Assembly (NCBI GenBank): GCA_017504605.1
Contig: JAFVQW010000051.1
Coordinates: forward strand, 1-36,567
Direction: 5' to 3'
Length of the DNA stretch: 36,567 bases
From: Clostridia bacterium
GTDB taxonomy: Bacteria; Bacillota; Clostridia; Oscillospirales; CAG-272
Part shown: piece after piece, positions 2,965-27,132 of the stretch
How the letters are laid out: the number at the start of each line of letters is the position of its first letter
How positions within the stretch are numbered: the first letter of the stretch is position 1
Notes under the pieces: generated by a model
Seen by the model: the letters and a program-made list of their open reading frames with translations, nothing else
Told to the model about the DNA's origin: nothing
Databases searched by the model: none
Position numbers and translations under genes: made by a program

Positions 2965-3459
2965 ATGAAAAAAGTTGCCGTGCTTATGGGAAGCGACAGT
3001 GACCTTCCTATTGTAGAAAAGGGAATTAACGTTCTTCGCGAATACGGCGTGCCCTACGAGGTGCACGTATATTCCGCACACAGAACTCCCCGCGAGTGCG
3101 CCGAGTTCGTCGGCGGGGCGAGGGAGCGTGGCTTCGGCGTTATTATCGCCGCGGCGGGAATGGCGGCGCACCTTGCGGGTGCGGTTGCCGCGAACACGAC
3201 ACTCCCCGTTATCGGTATTCCGATTTCCTGTAAGAATACGGGCGGTATGGATGCGCTTCTTGCGACGGTGCAGATGCCCTCGGGTATTCCCGTTGCGACG
3301 GTGGCTATCGACGGTGCGGCGAACGCCGCTCATCTTGCGGTTGAAATTCTCGCACTCTCCGACGAGGGCCTTGCACAGAAGCTTGTCGAGGCGCGCCGCG
3401 CGGCCTCCGAGACCGTTCTTGCAAAGAATGCCGCCGTTGAGGCGAGGTATAACGCATAA
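2965..3459 (+). CDS. purE: N5-carboxyaminoimidazole ribonucleotide mutase PurE
   Basis: Catalyses formation of 4-carboxy-5-aminoimidazole ribonucleotide in de novo purine synthesis, in the cytoplasm. The 164 residues carry the class I signatures: GSDSD near the N-terminus, SAHRTP with the catalytic-site histidine, and the [10 protein letters not shown] loop followed by LPVIGIPI. These fit the bacterial N5-CAIR mutase rather than the class II AIR carboxylase. Class I PurE normally works with the ATP-dependent PurK, and no purK lies in this window. It is the first gene of the operon, starting with ATG behind AGAAAGGA, 9 bases ahead of purF. Whether PurK exists elsewhere or PurE uses bicarbonate/CO2-derived substrate cannot be decided here. 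Confidence 0.95.
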
Positions 3460-3468
3460 GGAGTAAAA

Positions 3469-4884
3469 ATGAGCTTTTTTGGAATTATAGGCAACGAGCG
3501 TACGAGCGTTGCCGGCAGTGTTTATTACGGTCTCTACGCTCTTATGCATAGAGGACAGGAGAGCTGCGGAATTACGGTAAACGACGACGGACTTTTCCGC
3601 ACTCATAAGGGCACGGGCCTTGTGAACGACGTGTTCGACAATGAGAGCCTCGCGCATCTCGGAGAGGGAACTATGGTGATAGGCCACGTGCGCTACGGCA
3701 CTCTTCGCACTAAGGGCAGGGAGAACGTCGAGCCCGTGGTTGTAAATCACGTTAAGGGACGGCTCGCTATTGCGACCGAGGGCTGTCTTGTGAATTCGGG
3801 TGAGCTTCGCCGCGAGCTCGAGCTTCGCGGAATGATATTCCACTCGAACAGCGATGCCGAGATTATCTCCTACGTCATCACCGCCGAGCGCCTCAACGCT
3901 CCCTCGATTGAGGAGGCGGTTAACCGCGCAATGTCGCGGCTTAAGGGCGGCTACTGCCTGCTTCTTATGTCGCCTCAGAAGCTGATTGCCGCGCGTGACG
4001 AGAACGGACTTCACCCGGTTTGCTACGGCAAGCGCGAGGACGGACAGTACGTTATCGCGAGCGAGAGCTGCGCGCTCGACTCGGTCGGCGCAACCTTTAT
4101 AAGAGAGCTTGAGCCGGGCGAGATACTCGTATTCTCCCACGACGGAATAAAATCTATCAAGGACCACTGCGGTAAGCGCCCCGAGGCGCTCTGCGTGTTT
4201 GAATATCTTTATACCGCACGCCCCGACAGCGTGATATGCGGCCGCTCGGTGCACGCCGCGCGCAGGCGCGCGGGCGCTCTCCTCGCCGAGGCGCATCCCG
4301 TTGAGGCCGACGTCGTCGTCGGCGTTCCCGACTCGGGTCTTGACGCCGCTCTCGACTATGCCGAGAAATCGGGAATACCCTACGGTATAGGTCTCATCAA
4401 GAATAAATACATAGGAAGAACCTTTATCGCTCCCGGACAGGACGTCCGAGAGGATAAGGTCAGAATTAAGCTTAATCCGATAAGCGACACGGTTAGGGGA
4501 AAGAGAGTCGTGCTCGTTGACGACTCCATAGTGCGCGGAACGACCTGTGCAAGAATTGTCAGGCTGATACGCAACGCGGGAGCTACCGAGGTGCATCTTC
4601 GCTCCTCGGCACCGCCCTTTATGAACCCCTGCTATTACGGCACCGATATAGACTCCTGCGAGAGCCTGATTGCCTGCCACCACACGACCGAGGAAATCGC
4701 GAGAATTGTCGGCGCCGACACGCTCGGATACCTTCGTCTTGAGGACGTTACGAGGATTGCCGAGGGGGGAAGATGCGGCGGATATTGCACCGCCTGCTTC
4801 GACGGCAAATATCCGACCGAGCCCCCGACAAAGTACGTAAGCAAATTTGAAAATAAAATATCAGAAAGTGAGAGCAAGAAGTGA
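3469..4884 (+). CDS. purF: Amidophosphoribosyltransferase PurF, glutaminase nucleophile missing
   Basis: First enzyme of purine synthesis, making 5-phosphoribosylamine from PRPP. The 471 residues match PurF from end to end: an N-terminal Ntn-type glutaminase domain (about 1-235) and a PRTase domain with the PRPP loop VVLVDDSIVRGTT. The four 4Fe-4S cysteines are kept (C242, C388, C440, C443). The N-terminus reads MSFFGIIG. Aligned with the usual CGVFGV start, the essential Cys1 position is the initiator Met, followed by Ser. An in-frame stop at 3457-3459 with no start codon between excludes a longer product. The oxyanion Asn of the HNGNL motif is Glu (ATEGCL, E104), while Arg75 and Asp129 are retained. 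I infer that glutamine hydrolysis is lost and that free ammonia is used. The GTGA overlap couples it to purM. Confidence 0.93.
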   Translation: MSFFGIIGNERTSVAGSVYYGLYALMHRGQESCGITVNDDGLFRTHKGTGLVNDVFDNESLAHLGEGTMVIGHVRYGTLRTKGRENVEPVVVNHVKGRLAIATEGCLVNSGELRRELELRGMIFHSNSDAEIISYVITAERLNAPSIEEAVNRAMSRLKGGYCLLLMSPQKLIAARDENGLHPVCYGKREDGQYVIASESCALDSVGATFIRELEPGEILVFSHDGIKSIKDHCGKRPEALCVFEYLYTARPDSVICGRSVHAARRRAGALLAEAHPVEADVVVGVPDSGLDAALDYAEKSGIPYGIGLIKNKYIGRTFIAPGQDVREDKVRIKLNPISDTVRGKRVVLVDDSIVRGTTCARIVRLIRNAGATEVHLRSSAPPFMNPCYYGTDIDSCESLIACHHTTEEIARIVGADTLGYLRLEDVTRIAEGGRCGGYCTACFDGKYPTEPPTKYVSKFENKISESESKK

Positions 4885-5921
4885 AAAATTCCAAATCCGA
4901 GAGCTACGCTGCGGCGGGCGTTGACATTACCGCGGGCTATAAGGCGGTTGAGCTTATGAAGGCTCATATTGCGAGGACGGTTACCAAGGGAGCCGATACC
5001 GACATCGGCGGCTTCGGCGGCCTTTTCGACCTCGACCTTGAGGGTATTAAGCATCCTATGCTCGTTAGCGGCACCGACGGTGTCGGCACGAAGCTCAAGC
5101 TTGCTTTCCTTATGGACAAGCACGATACGGTCGGCATCGACTGCGTTGCTATGTGCGTTAACGACGTAATCTGCGTCGGTGCGAGGCCTCTTTTCTTCCT
5201 CGACTATATTGCCTGCGGCAAGAACGTGCCCGAGAAGATTGCCGACATTGTAAAGGGCGTGTGCGAGGGCTGCGTTCAGTCGGGCGCCGCGCTTATCGGC
5301 GGCGAGACGGCGGAGATGCCTGGCTTCTATCCCGTTGACGAGTACGACCTCGCGGGCTTTGCGGTCGGTATCGTTGATAAGGATAAGGTGCTTGACAAGA
5401 ACTCTATGAGAGAGGGCGACGTTATTATCGCTATTCCCTCGAGCGGCGTTCACTCGAACGGCTTCTCGCTCGTTCGTAAGGTTTTCGATATAGAAAACTG
5501 CGACCTTAAGTCTCCGAGGGCGGAGCTCGGCGGCAAGAGCCTCGGCGAGACACTTCTCACTCCCACCAAAATATACGTTAAGCCTATGCTCGCGCTCTTT
5601 AACGAAATCAAGGTTAAGGGCGTGTCTCACATCACGGGCGGCGGCTTCTACGAAAACATACCGCGCAGCTTCCCTGCGGGGCTCGGCGCGAAAATCAAGA
5701 AGAGGGACGTTCGCACGCTCCCTATCTTCGAGCTTATTGCGAAGGAAGGAAATATTCCCGAGCGCGATATGTACAACACCTATAACATGGGTGTCGGAAT
5801 GAGTGTTGTCGTTGCAAGGGAGGATGCCGAGCGCGCTATCGAGATTCTCCGCGAGTGCGGCGAGGATGCATACCTTCTCGGCGAGGTCGTTAAGACCGAC
5901 GAGGGCGTAATTTTATGTTAA
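4881..5921 (+). CDS. purM: Phosphoribosylformylglycinamidine cyclo-ligase PurM (AIR synthetase)
   Basis: ATP-dependent ring closure of FGAM to aminoimidazole ribonucleotide, acting as a cytoplasmic dimer of the PurM/PurL ATPase superfamily. The 346 residues show the family landmarks in order: SYAAAGVD at the N-terminus, the VSGTDGVGTKLKLA nucleotide loop, MCVNDVICVGARPLFFLDY, GGETAEMPGFY and ITGGGFYENIPR. Length equals that of known PurM. Translation begins at a GTG overlapping the purF stop, where the usual PurM N-terminal residues begin; the ribosome site is weak, which suggests reinitiation from purF. It overlaps purN by 7 bases. Confidence 0.96.
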   Translation: MKNSKSESYAAAGVDITAGYKAVELMKAHIARTVTKGADTDIGGFGGLFDLDLEGIKHPMLVSGTDGVGTKLKLAFLMDKHDTVGIDCVAMCVNDVICVGARPLFFLDYIACGKNVPEKIADIVKGVCEGCVQSGAALIGGETAEMPGFYPVDEYDLAGFAVGIVDKDKVLDKNSMREGDVIIAIPSSGVHSNGFSLVRKVFDIENCDLKSPRAELGGKSLGETLLTPTKIYVKPMLALFNEIKVKGVSHITGGGFYENIPRSFPAGLGAKIKKRDVRTLPIFELIAKEGNIPERDMYNTYNMGVGMSVVVAREDAERAIEILRECGEDAYLLGEVVKTDEGVILC

Positions 5922-6529
5922 AGGTAAAAATTGCCGTTCTCGTTTCGGGAGGCGGAACGAACCTACAGGCGCTTATAGATGCCGAGCGTGCGGGGATTAT
6001 CACCTCGGGCGAGATTGCTCTCGTGCTCTCGAACAACCCGAACGCATACGCTCTCGAGCGTGCCCGTGCGGCGGGAATTGAGACGGCGGTCGTCTCGCGT
6101 AAGGAGTGTCCCGAGAGCTTCGAGGAGCGCATCATAGCCGAGCTTGACCGCCACGGTATAGAGCTTATAGTCCTCGCGGGCTTTATGTCTATACTCTCCG
6201 AGCGCTTCACCTCTCGCTATCCCGAGAGGATAATAAATGTACACCCCTCGCTTATTCCGTCCTTCTGCGGTAAGGGCTTCTACGGCCTGCGCGTGCACGA
6301 GGCGGCGCTCGAGTACGGCGTTCGCGTGAGCGGTGCCACCGTCCACTTCGTTAACGAAATCCCCGACGGCGGAAAAATTATAATGCAAAAAGCGGTTGAG
6401 GTGAAGGACGGCGACACGCCCGAGACACTTCAGCGGCGCATTATGGAGGAGGCGGAATGGAAGATTTTGCCCCTCTCCTGCGAGCGGGTCTCGCGGGATA
6501 TACTTACGGCGAAGACAAACAACGACTGA
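5915..6529 (+). CDS. purN: Phosphoribosylglycinamide formyltransferase PurN
   Basis: Transfers a formyl group from 10-formyltetrahydrofolate to GAR. The 204 residues show the fold signature LVSGGGTNLQAL at the N-terminus, the catalytic Asn-x-His in NVHPSLIPSF, and the acidic residue in HFVNEIPDGGKII. These are the three active-site residues known for the family. The ATG lies inside the end of purM, so translation is coupled. It is the folate-dependent PurN type rather than the formate-dependent PurT. Together with the AICAR transformylase downstream, both formyl-transfer steps of the pathway are encoded in this operon. Confidence 0.96.
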   Translation: MLKVKIAVLVSGGGTNLQALIDAERAGIITSGEIALVLSNNPNAYALERARAAGIETAVVSRKECPESFEERIIAELDRHGIELIVLAGFMSILSERFTSRYPERIINVHPSLIPSFCGKGFYGLRVHEAALEYGVRVSGATVHFVNEIPDGGKIIMQKAVEVKDGDTPETLQRRIMEEAEWKILPLSCERVSRDILTAKTNND

Positions 6530-6543
6530 CAGAGGAGAAGAAA

Positions 6544-7263
6544 ATGAACATTTACGCTATCGACAGCATTTCCGAGCTTCTTAAGACCAACGCCTACCCC
6601 GGCCGCGGTATAGTTATAGGAAAGAGTGAGGACGGCCGCTCTGCCGTTTTCGCATACTTCATTATGGGAAGAAGTGCGAACTCGCGCAACAGAATCTTCA
6701 ACGAGAAGAACAACGCGGTTTACACCGAGCCCTTCGATTACAGCAAGGTATCCGACCCCTCGCTCATAATCTACTCGGCAATCCGTAAGATTGACAACAA
6801 GATTATCGTCACCAACGGCGACCAGACCGACACGATTTACGATGCGATAGAGAGGGGCGGCGATATGAGGAGTGCGCTTCGCACCCGCGAGTTCGAGCCC
6901 GATGCTCCGAACCTCACCCCCCGTATCAGCGGAGTTCTCACCTTCGATAAGGGGGACTTCAACTACGAGATGAGCATACTTAAGAGCTCCGACCCCGAGG
7001 GCGCGGGCTGTAACCGCTTCTTCTACGAGTATTCTCCCGTTTCGGGCCTCGGTCACTTCATACATACCTACGTAACCGACGGCAATCCTCTGCCTACCTT
7101 CGTCGGGGAGCCCGAGCGCGTCAGAATTCCCGCGGATATAGATGAGCTTACGAGCTCCATCTGGAATAATCTCAACGAGGAAAACAAAATATCGCTTTAC
7201 GTCTGCTACACCGACCTTGAAACGGCGAAGCAGGAAATAAGACTTATTAATAAGAACGCATAA
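6544..7263 (+). CDS. IMP cyclohydrolase, PurO-like fold
   Basis: Predicted to close FAICAR to IMP, the last step of the pathway. The 239 residues resemble the archaeal-type IMP cyclohydrolase family (PF07826, PurO-like) rather than the MGS-like N-terminal domain of bacterial PurH. Supporting features are the YPGRGIVIG start, YFIMGRSANSRNR and the later NGDQTDTIYDA block. It sits directly upstream of a stand-alone AICAR transformylase, which lacks its own cyclohydrolase domain, so context strongly supports the function. The ATG at 6544 follows GAGGAGAAG; an in-frame ATG at 6457 would overlap purN by 73 bases and adds a low-quality leader, so I reject it. Spacing to the next gene is 11 bases. 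Confidence 0.88.
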   Translation: MNIYAIDSISELLKTNAYPGRGIVIGKSEDGRSAVFAYFIMGRSANSRNRIFNEKNNAVYTEPFDYSKVSDPSLIIYSAIRKIDNKIIVTNGDQTDTIYDAIERGGDMRSALRTREFEPDAPNLTPRISGVLTFDKGDFNYEMSILKSSDPEGAGCNRFFYEYSPVSGLGHFIHTYVTDGNPLPTFVGEPERVRIPADIDELTSSIWNNLNEENKISLYVCYTDLETAKQEIRLINKNA

Positions 7264-7274
7264 GGAGAGGGAAA

Positions 7275-8459
7275 ATGAAGGAATTTGAACTTAAATACGG
7301 CTGTAACCCCAATCAGAAGCCGTCAAGAATTTATATGGCGGACGGTAGCGAGCTCCCGATTGAGATACTCTCGGGCAGACCCGGCTACATTAACTTCCTC
7401 GATGCATTCAACTCCTGGCAGCTCGTCAGGGAGCTGAGCCTCGCTACGGGGCTTCCCGCCGCGACCTCCTTCAAGCACGTCAGCCCCACCTCTGCGGCTG
7501 TGGGTGCCAAGCTCTCGCCCGAGCTTAAGAGAGCCTGCTTCGTTGACGATATAGAGGGACTTGACGACTCCCCCCTCGCATGTGCATACGCGAGAGCGAG
7601 AGGCACCGACAGAATGTCCTCCTTCGGCGACTGGATTGCACTCTCCGAGGTCTGCGATAAGACGACGGCGCTCCTTATCAAGCGCGAGATTTCCGACGGT
7701 ATTATCGCTCCCGGCTACACCGACGAGGCGCTCGAAATTCTTAAAACCAAGAAGAAGGGCAACTACAATATAGTTAAGATTGACCCGAATTATATTCCTG
7801 CACAAAAAGAGACCAAGCAGGTCTTTGGAATTACCTTCGAGCAGGGAAGAAACAACTTCGAGATTAACCGCGCTCTTTTTGAGAATATCGTTACCGAGAA
7901 CAAAAATCTCACCGAGGACGCCGTGCGCGACCTAATTATCGCGCTTATTACGCTTAAGTACACCCAGTCGAACTCGGTATGCTATGCATATCAGGGTCAG
8001 GCAATCGGTGTCGGTGCGGGTCAGCAGTCGAGAATTCACTGCACGCGCCTTGCGGGAACTAAGGCTGACACCTGGCATATGCGCCAGTATAAGAAGGTGC
8101 TTGATTTGCCCTTCCTTCCCACTCTCTCCCGCCCCGACAGAGATAACGTTATAGACGGCTACATCAATAAGAACGAGGAGGACGTGTGTGCCGAGGGCAT
8201 CTGGCAGAAGTATTTTACCACCCGTCCCGAGCCTCTTACCGACGAGGAAATCAGAGCGCATCTTGACACAATCAGCGGCGTTTCTCTCGGCTCGGATGCC
8301 TTCTTCCCCTTCGGCGACAACATCGAGCGCGCCAAGAAGAGCGGCGTCAGCTATATTGCCGAGCCCGGCGGCTCGGTCCGTGACGACATCGTTATCGAGA
8401 CGGCGAACAAGTACGGAATGGTAATGGCGTTTACGGGAATGCGCCTCTTCCACCATTAA
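7275..8459 (+). CDS. Stand-alone AICAR transformylase
   Basis: Formylates AICAR to FAICAR with 10-formyltetrahydrofolate. The 394 residues contain only the transformylase part of PurH: the Lys-His active-site pair in FKHVSPTSAAVG, the DRMSSFGDWIALS block, GAGQQSRIHCTRLAG, SDAFFPFGDN and a C-terminal RLFHH. There is no MGS-like cyclohydrolase domain, whose job is taken by the gene just upstream. From memory these blocks follow the C-terminal half of animal ATIC more closely than typical bacterial PurH (for example KHVSPxxAA in place of KHxNPCG, and the RLFHH ending). The ATG follows AAGGAGAGGG. The function is secure; the eukaryotic-like affinity is my reading from recalled sequences. Confidence 0.93.
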   Translation: MKEFELKYGCNPNQKPSRIYMADGSELPIEILSGRPGYINFLDAFNSWQLVRELSLATGLPAATSFKHVSPTSAAVGAKLSPELKRACFVDDIEGLDDSPLACAYARARGTDRMSSFGDWIALSEVCDKTTALLIKREISDGIIAPGYTDEALEILKTKKKGNYNIVKIDPNYIPAQKETKQVFGITFEQGRNNFEINRALFENIVTENKNLTEDAVRDLIIALITLKYTQSNSVCYAYQGQAIGVGAGQQSRIHCTRLAGTKADTWHMRQYKKVLDLPFLPTLSRPDRDNVIDGYINKNEEDVCAEGIWQKYFTTRPEPLTDEEIRAHLDTISGVSLGSDAFFPFGDNIERAKKSGVSYIAEPGGSVRDDIVIETANKYGMVMAFTGMRLFHH

Positions 8460-8476: not shown

Positions 8477-9748
<1,272 letters not shown>

Positions 9749-9751
9749 CGA

Positions 9752-12700
9752 ATGGTATACCGCATATATGTAGAAAAGAAGCCCGCCCTCGCGAACGAGG
9801 CGCGCTCTCTCGAGTCCGAGATTTCGACCTTTCTCGGTATTTGTGGTGTCGAGCGTGTGAGAATTGTCAACCGCTACGATGCAGAGAATATAACTAAGGA
9901 GCTTTTCGACTACGCTGTCGGCACGGTTTTCTCCGAGCCCCAGCTTGACGACGCTTACACCGAGGCGGATTTTGGCGATGCCGTCGTGTTTGCCACCGAG
10001 TATCTGCCCGGTCAGTTCGACCAGCGTGCCGATTCCGCCGCACAGTGTATTCAGCTTATATCCCAGGGAGATAAGCCCACCGTTGCCTCGGCTAAGGTTT
10101 ACGCCATTTACGGCAGCCTCACTGAGGCCGATATTGCAAAAATCAAAAAGCACGTAATAAATCCCGTTGAGGCAAGAGAGGCCTCGCTCGATTTGCGCGA
10201 TACGCTTAAGCAGGACTACACCGTGCCCGCTATGGTTAAGACCCTCGACGGATTTTTGGAGCTTGACCGCGCGGGGCTTGAGAAATTCGTTGCCGATTAC
10301 GGGCTTGCTATGGACGGCGACGACATCGAGTTCTGTCAGAGCTATTTTAAGAGTGAGGGCAGATGTCCGACCATTACCGAAATCCGTATGATTGACACCT
10401 ATTGGTCCGACCACTGCCGCCATACCACCTTTAATACCACTATAGACAACGTCACCTTCGAGGACGAGCTTCTTGAGAAGACCTATCGCGAGTATCTTGA
10501 GGCGCGCGAGTACATAGGCCGCAAGAAGCCCAAAAATCTTATGGACATCGGCACTATTGCCGCGAAGTGCCTTAAGAAGTGCGGCAAGCTCGAGGGGCTC
10601 GACGAGTCCGAGGAGATTAACGCCTGCACGGTAAAGATTACCGTCGAGATTGACGGGGTTAAGGAGCCCTGGCTTCTTCTCTTCAAGAACGAGACTCACA
10701 ATCACCCGACCGAGATTGAGCCCTTCGGCGGTGCGGCCACCTGTATCGGCGGCGCAATCCGCGACCCGCTCTCGGGCCGCTCCTACGTCTACGGCGCTAT
10801 GCGCCTGACGGGTGCTGCCGACCCGCTCCGTCCCATCGGGGATACCCTACCCGGTAAGCTCCCGCAGAGGAAGATTGTTACCACCGCTGCCGCAGGCTAC
10901 TCGTCCTACGGCAACCAGATAGGACTTGCTACGGGAATTGTTGACGAGATATACCACGACGGCTATGCCGCGAAGCATATGGAGGTCGGCGCGGTAATTG
11001 CGGCGGCTCCCGCGGCTAACGTTCGCCGTGAGGTTCCCGCTGACGGCGACCTCGTCGTGCTTCTTGGCGGCAGAACCGGTCGCGACGGCTGTGGCGGTGC
11101 TACGGGCTCGTCGAAGTCGCATAACTTAAAGTCGCTTGAGAGCTGCGGTGCAGAGGTGCAGAAGGGTAACGCTCCCGAGGAGAGAAAGCTTCAGCGCCTG
11201 TTCAGAAATCCCGAGGTTTCGCGTATGATTAAGCGCTGTAACGACTTCGGTGCTGGCGGCGTGTCGGTTGCTATCGGCGAGCTCGCCGACGGCCTTGACA
11301 TCGACCTCAATGCCGTTCCGAAGAAGTACGAGGGCCTTGACGGCACCGAGCTTGCTATAAGCGAGTCGCAGGAGAGAATGGCGGTTGTTATCGAGCCCCC
11401 ATCTCTTGAGAGATTTCTCGCGCTTGCAAACGAGGAGAACCTCGAGGCTACCGTCGTTGCGAGGGTTAAGGCTGACCCGAGACTTACCATGACCTGGTGC
11501 GGCAGGGTTATATGCGACATCAGCCGCGAATTCTTGAATTCCAACGGCGCAGAGAAGCATATCGAGATTAAGACCAATAAGATACAGAGCTTTGATAAGC
11601 CCACGCCCGAGAGCTTCGGCGCGGGTATGACGGCTCTTGCGGGCGGGCTCAACACCTGCTCTAAGAGGGGGCTTTCCGAGAGATTTGACAGCACTATCGG
11701 TGCGGGAACGGTGCTTATGCCCTTCGGTGGCAAGCATCAGCGCACGCCCATACAGGCAATGGTGCAGAAGGTCTCGGTGGAGAAGGGTCATACCGACGAC
11801 GTCTCCTTTATGTCCTGGGGCTACAACCCCGATATATCCGAGAAGAGCCCCTATCACGGTGCATATCTCGCGGTCGTTGAGTCTGTATCCAAGCTTATAG
11901 CGACGGGTGCCGATTTTAAGGACGTATACCTGACCTTCCAGGAATACTTCGAGAAGCCGATGAAGGATGCGGCAAGATGGGGCAAGCCCCTCGCGGCACT
12001 CCTCGGTGCCTTCCGCGCACAGATGGAGCTCGGCGTTGCCGCAATAGGCGGTAAGGACTCGATGTCGGGCAGCTTCGAGAAGCTCGACGTACCCCCGACC
12101 CTCATCTCCTTCGCCGTTACGACGGGAAAGGTGGGCGAGGTTATCTCCCCCGAGTTCAAGTCTGCGGGAAGCAGGGTTGCGCTTCTTACTCCCGAGTACG
12201 GCGAGGACGGCCTTCCTACCCATACCTCTCTTATCGCACTTTACAATAAGGTAACCTCGCTTATGCGCGAGGGCAAGGTCCTCGCGGCCTATACTCCCAC
12301 CATTGGCGGTGTCGGCGAGGCGGTTATGAAGATGGCTATGGGTAACGGCTTCGGCTTCAGCTTTGCCGAGGGCGTCAGCATGAAGGACGTGTTCTCCTAC
12401 CTTTACGGCTCGTTTATTCTTGAGCTCTCCGCGGACACCGAGGAGGGAAGAACTCTCGGCTACGTTACCGACGGCGGCGAGTTTACCCTCGGCGAGGAGA
12501 AAATCTCCGTTTCCGAGATTAACAAGACCTACGAGGACAAGCTTGAGAGCGTTTACTCCTGCAACGTAAAGAGCCCGACCGACTCTCTCGAGACGGTTTC
12601 CTATAAGGCAGGCGCGCGCCGCGCTCCCGCGGTAAGGGTTGCGAAGCCCCGCGTGCTTATCCCCGTATTCCCCGGCACCAACTGCGAGTACGACTCGGCA

Positions 12701-13444
12701 AAGGCTGTGACCGATGCGGGTGCCGAGGCCGAGATTTTCGTCATCAACAACCTTACTGCCGACGGAGTTAAGAGGAGTGCCGAGACCTTTGCTAAGAAGA
12801 TTGGCCAGAGCCAGGCTATCTTCGTTCCCGGCGGCTTCTCGGGCGGTGACGAGCCCGACGGCTCGGGTAAGTTTATAACGGCATTCTTCCGCGGCGAGGC
12901 GGTAAAGAGCGCCGTCAGCGAGCTTCTTGACTCGCGCGACGGACTTATGTGCGGTATCTGTAACGGCTTCCAGGCTCTTATCAAGCTCGGACTTCTTCCT
13001 TACGGAAGGATTATAGACACCGACGAGAGCTGTCCTACTCTTACCTTTAATAATATAGCACGCCACCAGTCGAAGATTGTAAGGACGAGAATAGCCTCGA
13101 ATATGTCGCCCTGGCTTGCACTTACCGAGGTCGGCGAGATTTACAACGTGCCGATTTCTCACGGTGAGGGTAAATTCCTTGCGACGGATGCGACCGTACG
13201 CGAGCTTATCGCGAACGGCCAAGTTGCAACGCAGTACGTTGACCTTGACGGACGCGCTACCTACGACATCGACTACAATCCGAACGGCTCGACCTACGCT
13301 ATCGAGGGTATAACCTCACCCGACGGACGAGTATTCGGAAAGATGGGACATTCCGAGCGTATCGGCGACGGACTTTATAAAAACGTCATCGGCGAATATG
13401 ACATTAAGATGTTTAAGTCGATGATTAAATATTTCAAAGGTTAA
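9752..13444 (+). CDS. purL: FGAM synthase PurL, single-chain type with glutaminase domain
   Basis: Converts FGAR to FGAM with glutamine and ATP. At 1230 residues this is the single-polypeptide form found in many Clostridia, fusing PurS-like, PurL and PurQ functions. The PurS-like N-terminal region is followed by the linker signature DTYWSDHCRHTTF, the first ATPase block with NETHNHPTEIEPFGGAATC, a second PurM-like half, and a class I glutaminase domain from about residue 967 (VLIPVFPGTNCEYD). The glutaminase triad is intact: Cys1070 in GICNGFQ, and His1137 and Glu1139 in SHGEGKF. This contrasts with the defective PurF glutaminase in the same operon. Start is ATG behind GAAAGGAAG, 4 bases after purD. 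It is the last operon gene, closed by a strong terminator. Confidence 0.97.
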   Translation: MVYRIYVEKKPALANEARSLESEISTFLGICGVERVRIVNRYDAENITKELFDYAVGTVFSEPQLDDAYTEADFGDAVVFATEYLPGQFDQRADSAAQCIQLISQGDKPTVASAKVYAIYGSLTEADIAKIKKHVINPVEAREASLDLRDTLKQDYTVPAMVKTLDGFLELDRAGLEKFVADYGLAMDGDDIEFCQSYFKSEGRCPTITEIRMIDTYWSDHCRHTTFNTTIDNVTFEDELLEKTYREYLEAREYIGRKKPKNLMDIGTIAAKCLKKCGKLEGLDESEEINACTVKITVEIDGVKEPWLLLFKNETHNHPTEIEPFGGAATCIGGAIRDPLSGRSYVYGAMRLTGAADPLRPIGDTLPGKLPQRKIVTTAAAGYSSYGNQIGLATGIVDEIYHDGYAAKHMEVGAVIAAAPAANVRREVPADGDLVVLLGGRTGRDGCGGATGSSKSHNLKSLESCGAEVQKGNAPEERKLQRLFRNPEVSRMIKRCNDFGAGGVSVAIGELADGLDIDLNAVPKKYEGLDGTELAISESQERMAVVIEPPSLERFLALANEENLEATVVARVKADPRLTMTWCGRVICDISREFLNSNGAEKHIEIKTNKIQSFDKPTPESFGAGMTALAGGLNTCSKRGLSERFDSTIGAGTVLMPFGGKHQRTPIQAMVQKVSVEKGHTDDVSFMSWGYNPDISEKSPYHGAYLAVVESVSKLIATGADFKDVYLTFQEYFEKPMKDAARWGKPLAALLGAFRAQMELGVAAIGGKDSMSGSFEKLDVPPTLISFAVTTGKVGEVISPEFKSAGSRVALLTPEYGEDGLPTHTSLIALYNKVTSLMREGKVLAAYTPTIGGVGEAVMKMAMGNGFGFSFAEGVSMKDVFSYLYGSFILELSADTEEGRTLGYVTDGGEFTLGEEKISVSEINKTYEDKLESVYSCNVKSPTDSLETVSYKAGARRAPAVRVAKPRVLIPVFPGTNCEYDSAKAVTDAGAEAEIFVINNLTADGVKRSAETFAKKIGQSQAIFVPGGFSGGDEPDGSGKFITAFFRGEAVKSAVSELLDSRDGLMCGICNGFQALIKLGLLPYGRIIDTDESCPTLTFNNIARHQSKIVRTRIASNMSPWLALTEVGEIYNVPISHGEGKFLATDATVRELIANGQVATQYVDLDGRATYDIDYNPNGSTYAIEGITSPDGRVFGKMGHSERIGDGLYKNVIGEYDIKMFKSMIKYFKG

Positions 13445-26925: not shown

Positions 26926-26954
26926 TTGACAAACGCCCTCCTTTCGTGTATAAT
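26926..26954 (+). promoter_or_regulatory. Sigma-A promoter of rplJL
   Basis: Perfect TTGACA (26926-26931) and TATAAT (26949-26954) with a 17-base spacer, the best consensus promoter in the window and fitting for ribosomal protein genes. Confidence 0.95.
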
Positions 26955-26965
26955 ACCATAGGTAT

Positions 26966-27060
26966 CCTAAGACAGCAGGTTCCGGTAAAAGCGTAGGCTT
27001 TCCTGCCGAGGTGAGACAAACGAATATTCGCGCGGAGTATTTTCGCGTATATTTTTTGTC
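26966..27060 (+). promoter_or_regulatory. Ribosomal L10 leader with additional hairpin
   Basis: The AAGACAGCAGG segment (26969-26979) and its partner CCTGCCGAGGTGAGAC (27002-27017) form the known L10-leader core, by which the L10(L12)4 complex represses its own mRNA. A second long hairpin follows, 27015-27020 with 27055-27060 and an inner 23-32 with 44-53 pairing block (27023-27032 with 27044-27053, one mismatch), ending in a T-rich stretch. It could serve as an attenuator. The leader lies between the promoter and rplJ. Confidence 0.85.
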
Positions 27061-27132
27061 CTTTCTCGGTTGGCCTATGTGTCGAATCCGGAAGGGATTT
27101 TTTATTTGAAATTTTTATGGAGGTGGAACAAA

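Follow-up and report, generated by a model that had tools for sequence, protein, structure and literature searches.

The 36,567-nucleotide stretch of DNA analysed here (the window), from an uncultured gut bacterium of the Clostridia, encodes a PurF that lacks the catalytic N-terminal cysteine of glutamine phosphoribosylpyrophosphate (PRPP) amidotransferase. This protein is likely the organism's working PurF, which has lost glutamine hydrolysis and forms phosphoribosylamine (PRA) from PRPP and free ammonia in a lineage that probably descends from an ancestor with two enzyme sets and lacks members of the glutamine set. In the standard account, purine synthesis depends on glutamine at its committed step. 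The loss of the nucleophile can be read directly from the gene and its relatives, and from the clade and its genomic context we infer ammonia as the donor, the ancestral two-set state and a high ambient ammonia supply.

The PurF of the window and its operon

The protein matches the PurF profile TIGR01134 over profile positions 5-432 of 432 at 468 bits, above the curated cut-off of 350, which places it in the PurF family. The next model scored 97 bits, and a GlmS or AsnB misfiled as PurF was thereby ruled out. The window PurF is a full-length homologue of the Bacillus subtilis enzyme (1ao0/1gph, EC 2.4.2.14), with which it shares the PRPP loop, the flexible loop, the four Fe-S cysteines (Cys242, Cys388, Cys440 and Cys443) and the purine operon. 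Unlike the enzymes of EC 2.4.2.14, it has neither Cys1 nor a propeptide, and the His-Asn of the HNG motif is replaced. The positions are given in Table 1.

Table 1. Features of the purine operon and of the window PurF
Feature	Positions	Strand	Basis or observation
purE	2965..3459	+	TIGR01162
In-frame stop TAA, end of purE	3457..3459	+	Sequence reading; no start codon before ATG at 3469
purF, PurF without glutaminase nucleophile, 471 aa	3469..4884	+	TIGR01134, 468 bits
Initiator Met in Cys1 column	3469..3471	+	Met in 28/28 Cys-less loci, Cys in 59/59 Cys-bearing PurFs
Arg75 (E. coli Arg73)	3691..3693	+	Retained in 28/28 Cys-less loci
Glu88, clade-fixed	3730..3732	+	28/28 Cys-less loci; Gln in 57/59 Cys-bearing PurFs
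Thr103-Glu104 replacing His-Asn of HNG	3775..3780	+	Thr103 in 27/28, Asn104 retained in 9/28 Cys-less loci
Asp129 (which we take to be Asp127 of E. coli PurF)	3853..3855	+	Retained in 24/28 Cys-less loci
Cys242, Fe-S ligand position	4192..4194	+	Sequence reading/alignment
Thr249, clade-fixed, adjoining the conserved Tyr of EYxYxARPDS	4213..4215	+	28/28 Cys-less loci; Phe in 54/59 Cys-bearing PurFs
PRPP loop VDDSIVRGTT	4516..4545	+	Sequence reading/alignment
Cys388, Fe-S ligand position	4630..4632	+	Sequence reading/alignment
Cys440 and Cys443, Fe-S ligand positions	4786..4797	+	Sequence reading/alignment
purM	4881..5921	+	TIGR00878
purN	5915..6529	+	TIGR00639
purO-type IMP cyclohydrolase	6457..7263	+	PF07826
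AICAR formyltransferase, separate gene	7275..8459	+	NF005492
purD	8477..9748	+	TIGR00877
purL with C-terminal GATase domain	9752..13444	+	PF13507; Cys, His and Glu motifs read by eye

A sequence-only reading of this DNA had claimed that Met/Ser stands where Cys1 should be and that there is no room for a Cys-bearing propeptide. In the alignment, the Met of the N-terminus MSFFGIIG lines up with the first mature residue of B. subtilis PurF, and the glutaminase nucleophile is absent. The only codons from the purE stop to the ATG at 3469 are GGA GTA AAA, with no ATG, GTG or TTG among them. Since no start codon separates the stop from the ATG, the protein has no propeptide and no Cys, and both claims stand; a misannotated start concealing a Cys was ruled out by the upstream frames. 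The same reading had the oxyanion Asn of HNGNL changed to Glu104, the phosphoribosyltransferase (PRTase) loop and all four Fe-S cysteines intact, and PurL in possession of its own triad. We found the motif to read TEGCL, with Glu104 at 3778-3780, and the loop, the cysteines and the PurL motifs were likewise as described. Judged from these residues, the known mechanism of glutamine amidotransferases is closed to the window PurF; it belongs by descent to the PurF family but should not be classified among the glutamine amidotransferases.

The operon runs purE-F-M-N-O-H-D-L and is intact, as it is in 9 further genomes with a Cys-less PurF. The PF07826 match begins at residue 47 of the purO-type open reading frame, the true start of which is probably downstream of 6457. 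An Rfam scan of the window gave no match upstream of purE, and its sole match was the ribosomal protein L10 leader (RF00557) at 26948-27112. The window also encodes an NADPH-dependent glutamate synthase-like protein (TIGR01316, 31800-33218).

The Cys-less clade and selection on the two halves of PurF

We sampled 69 genomes of the genus. A PurF-like match was present in 59 of them, and a window-type protein in 17 (the window genome and 16 others). The 16 other proteins are 70-78% identical. In all 17 the Cys1 column holds Met, and the next residue is Ser, Gly or Ala. Named genomes were scanned as well and yielded 158 loci; among the best 80 of them were 16 window-type loci, 5 on contigs already in the genus set, and Met occupies the Cys1 column in 16/16. 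Columns were then compared between 28 distinct Cys-less loci and 59 Cys-bearing PurFs. Met1, Arg75, Glu88, Ala130, Gly161 and Thr249 are each fixed in 28/28 Cys-less loci.

Whether the Cys-less form is a clade, as the sequence-only reading had asked, was answered by two trees. The first placed 10/10 Cys-less PurFs in one clade with support of 100/100 (L029 and L039 were removed for length; L034 was labelled Cys-less there owing to a frame interrupted by one internal TAG, and was excluded from later sets). The second placed 27/27 Cys-less rows in one clade with an SH-aLRT of 100 by a quick method, with Cys-bearing PurFs around it. Its 86 rows took in L151-L182 minus 5 loci on contigs already included, together with 9 of the later loci; L214 entered the 28-locus column comparison and is absent from this tree.

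The data are metagenome assemblies, which leaves room for an error of sequencing, assembly or start site; a sequencing error at the start had been named in advance as the result that would overturn the reading. However, the 28 distinct loci are concordant, 27 of them in one clade, the upstream stops and frames were checked, and Met recurs in both the genus and the named sets (5 loci shared). The chance of such an error is negligible, and we consider it refuted in practice.

The position of the losses in the clade qualifies another early claim, that of two independent active-site losses. It holds for the window protein but not clade-wide: Asn104 is retained in 9 of the 28 Cys-less loci while the loss of Cys1 is universal, so the loss of Asn104 appears secondary. 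Most simply, Cys1 would have been lost once and Asn104 later.

The enzyme might still hydrolyse glutamine through an unusual nucleophile, for example Ser2 after removal of the Met; the window PurF does have Ser at position 2, and Arg75 is kept in 28/28 and Asp129 in 24/28 loci. But among the 28 loci position 2 is occupied by Gly (22), Ala (3) or Ser (3), so no nucleophile is conserved there and Ser2 was ruled out in this role. Moreover, the available part of PMC3261824 reports that the Cys1-to-Ser form of E. coli PurF has no detectable glutamine activity. We regard this explanation as highly improbable.

We then compared the two halves of the protein. Conserved columns were defined as those with at least 94% conservation in 33 Cys-bearing PurFs, and their retention was scored across all 17 Cys-less PurFs. 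The PRTase half kept 55/57 such columns in all 17 proteins and the glutaminase half 37/52, with overall retention of 0.998 and 0.912, respectively. The median ratio of glutaminase to PRTase amino-acid divergence was 1.41 in the Cys-less PurFs (136 pairs) versus 0.98 in 16 same-genus Cys-bearing PurFs (120 pairs). The faster divergence of the glutaminase half is the pattern expected of an enzyme that still makes PRA but no longer hydrolyses glutamine. Since Glu88, Gly161 and Thr249 are invariant and Thr103 varies only once in 28 loci, the conservation also suggests that part of the old glutamine pocket is under a new constraint.

A sampling site is stated in the titles for 14 of the 16 named Cys-less loci among the best 80 of 158, and all 14 name the caecum, colon or rectum, in goat, sheep or deer. 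The 8 Cys-bearing loci that belong to the same RGIG series and listing have titles naming the rumen, omasum or ileum. Clade and sampling are confounded in this comparison.

Copy number, alternative PurFs and nitrogen genes

A second, Cys-bearing purF, for which a search had been suggested, was not found in the window genome, where the only other match was GlmS; this genome is 83% complete, and a second purF could therefore sit in the missing part. The window-type PurF is the only PurF match in 15 of the 17 window-type genomes, including all four with at least 90% completeness and at most 5% contamination (G002, G030, G060 and G075; 91-97% complete). The two exceptions are G013, which also has a type-2 PurF (described below), and G086, which also has a Cys-bearing PurF. 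In G086 the Cys-less PurF is in the pur operon, and PyrG is encoded beside the Cys-bearing PurF on another contig.

These counts bear on the proposal that the window purF is a degenerating or regulatory paralogue in a cell that lives on purine salvage. The relaxed constraint in the glutaminase half fits that proposal, but the PRTase half has kept almost all of its constraint, the operon is unbroken in the window and the 9 further genomes, and no other PurF was found in 15 of the 17 genomes, all of which make it very unlikely.

The type-2 PurF is a second Cys-less family. It is about 32% identical to the window PurF and falls under the TIGR01134 cut-off (P0002, L046:1683-3119:-, scored 160 bits against 350). 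Like the window PurF, it lacks Cys1 and Asn104 (each 0/22) and the HNG motif, and it occupies the purF slot of the same operon, as seen in five same-genus genomes (L084-L088); L092 is a further example in the order. Unlike the window PurF, it lacks in the alignment the segment that bears Arg73, and the two types form separate clades with support of 100/100 each, so that the window PurF does not group with type-2. The same operon slot can hold a Cys-less, a type-2 or a Cys-bearing PurF. When 36 operons were placed in a tree by their PurM, those with a type-2 and those with a Cys-less PurF interleaved, as if the purF slot had been swapped between the two, although a single gene such as purM is itself transferable.

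Among 147 genomes of the order, 37 have type-2 only, 42 have type-2 and another PurF match, 60 (the window genome among them) have only other PurFs and 8 have none, with unread type-2 genomes assigned by similarity. By coordinates, at least 7 of these 42 genomes (G053, G116, G142, G186, G204, G211 and G217) have the type-2 and the other PurF adjacent to each other rather than in separate clusters. In 19 genomes, 18 of the 42 plus G023, we examined the neighbourhood of the PurF other than type-2; in 19/19 that PurF carries both Cys1 and Asn104. This Cys-bearing PurF adjoins pyrG, asnB or carA in 12/19, a count that becomes 8/14 without the five genomes chosen because Amt is on the same contig (G136, G159, G163, G184 and G191). 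It is near amt in one more and beside purE in 2, and none of these genes is near in 4. The fullest cluster, glnA3-amt::PII-asnB-pyrG-purF-carA-carB in L094, begins with a glutamine synthetase III gene. From these neighbours, the glutamine-using enzymes are often co-located with ammonium uptake. A cluster of asnB, pyrG, purF, carA and carB was observed in L094, L096, L097, L101, L110 and L111, the fuller forms adding glutamine synthetase III and amt, and it looks like a nitrogen-limitation set.

Other PurF variants were also encountered. The PurF of L038 (G040) is Cys-bearing, with GNCQY for GHVRY and an insertion, and has apparently lost the glutamine-binding Arg. Two Margulisiibacteriota/WOR-1 contigs (L227 and L228) carry a PurF-like open reading frame with an FEGN motif directly upstream of purF.

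Nitrogen genes were compared by PurF type. Among same-genus genomes, Amt was found in 0/10 Cys-less and 0/7 type-2-only genomes versus 4/7 Cys-bearing ones; order-wide, it is present in 2/37 type-2-only genomes and 29/42 with type-2 and another PurF, and absent in 30/60 with only other PurFs. PyrG was found in 0/40 genus genomes whose PurFs are all of the Cys-less or type-2 kind versus 15/19 with a Cys-bearing PurF, Cys status having been read in 17 of these 19 and assigned by similarity in G084 and G090. It is absent in 16/17 window-type genomes, the exception being G086. The CTP synthase domain PF06418 had no match in 52/69 genus genomes, including 14/22 with at least 90% completeness and at most 5% contamination. 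Outside the genus, the type-2-only genome G054 has PyrG and G147 does not. The four of 19 Cys-bearing genomes without PyrG (G004, G018, G019 and G029) have PurFs with NNGTL or MNGAL for HNGNL; the NNGTL proteins (L018, L019 and L020, of G018, G004 and G019, respectively) possibly represent a halfway state.

CarA over the cut-off was found in 0/6 Cys-less and 0/4 same-genus type-2-only genomes, in which CarB is present in 5/6 and 4/4, respectively. In the window genome, the pyr operon runs pyrC-carB-pyrK, then pyrF-pyrE-pyrB, without carA (pyrD is named in the matching operon of L232), and pyrC precedes carB at the position that carA holds in G088 (carA-carB). In L231 (G000 C59) and L232-L241, a full-length CarB lies in the pyr operon with pyrC instead of CarA beside it, and from this arrangement these CarBs are likely ammonia-dependent carbamoyl phosphate synthases. 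AsnA is present in the window genome and 6/8 Cys-less genomes, and also in Cys-bearing ones. Control genomes were positive in 14/14 for Amt, PyrG, PF06418, CarA and CarB and in 2/14 for AsnA. The co-occurrences are strong in their counts but phylogenetically clumped, with 3 supported independent pairs, all concordant (sign test p 0.25). GlmS and HisH of the window genome have intact glutaminase motifs and there are glutamine synthetase matches, which makes continued synthesis and use of glutamine probable in this organism.

Separate glutaminases acting in trans serve other amidotransferases, as HisH and PurQ do. A protein of this kind might supply ammonia to the window PurF, which would leave the step glutamine-using; in its favour, the Tyr and Ile positions that the available part of PMC7953260 names as channel wall fall in conserved motifs of the window PurF. 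On the other hand, the gaps from purE to purL in the 9 further Cys-less operons are at most 369 bases and leave no space within the operon for a normal glutaminase gene, and the glutamine users CarA and PyrG are also missing. We consider a glutaminase in trans unlikely.

Proposed ammonia use and relation to known systems

The proposal of the sequence-only reading, a PurF that makes PRA from free ammonia, is supported by the clade, the sole PurF and the genomic context. According to the part of PMC3261824 available to us, which cites Mei and Zalkin 1989, Cys1 mutants of E. coli PurF lose the use of glutamine and retain that of ammonia, so the ammonia chemistry can outlast the loss of the nucleophile. 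In the pathway that we propose, the window PurF would form PRA from PRPP and free ammonia at its intact PRTase site, and the PRA would pass to PurD, encoded in the same operon. Two sets of enzymes were probably present in the ancestor: an ammonia set, with PurF encoded in the pur operon, a CarB encoded in the pyr operon without CarA, and AsnA; and a glutamine set, encoded in a cluster that also held the ammonium transporter and glutamine synthetase III. Lacking Amt, PyrG, CarA and a Cys-bearing PurF from this second set, the window lineage would be committed to ammonia for the PRA step.

More tentatively, the clade may be a remodelled, dedicated ammonia enzyme, in which Q88E, H103T, A161G and F249T turn the glutamine pocket and channel mouth into a route for ammonium capture and entry. 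It would be one instance of an order-wide two-set scheme that covers PurF, carbamoyl phosphate synthase and asparagine synthetase, with loss of the glutamine cluster committing the gut lineage to ammonia. We hold this wider reading as possible but doubtful. If the two-set scheme is true, the committed lineages imply a source of CTP other than PyrG, because PyrG is gone.

The pair AsnA and AsnB follows the same logic, with an ammonia-using and a glutamine-using enzyme for one step. To our knowledge, AsnA is not a converted AsnB; unlike AsnA, the window PurF was converted in place. The nearest precedent is the crenarchaeal PurF', which, as far as the available part of PMC3261824 describes it, has no N-terminal Cys, lies near purine genes, was proposed to use ammonia and is accompanied in each genome by a normal PurF. 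The window PurF is likewise Cys-less and near purine genes. It differs in having no Cys-bearing PurF found alongside it in the window genome, in being the sole PurF of most window-type genomes, in being bacterial and in being nested among close Cys-bearing relatives. In the open-access literature, we found no bacterium described with a Cys-less PurF as its only PurF, and no description of the glnA3-amt-asnB-pyrG-purF-carAB cluster. The nearest arrangement is the ammonium-responsive amtB-glnK-asnB-glnN-gltBD one of Prevotella ruminicola 23, in which the available part of PMC5552732 mentions no purF; that text is inconsistent on the direction of regulation.

An annotation that follows TIGR01134 would assign the wrong reaction to the window PurF. 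Its genomes also offer a cleaner setting in which the 2011 proposal on Cys-less PurF can be tested, with no confounding Cys-bearing copy, and sister genomes hold a very divergent second Cys-less PurF in the same slot. Taken at the level of genes and genomes, purine synthesis in gut Clostridia appears to draw on ammonia at its committed step, with a PurF converted in place, which would link the architecture of the enzyme to the supply of ammonia.
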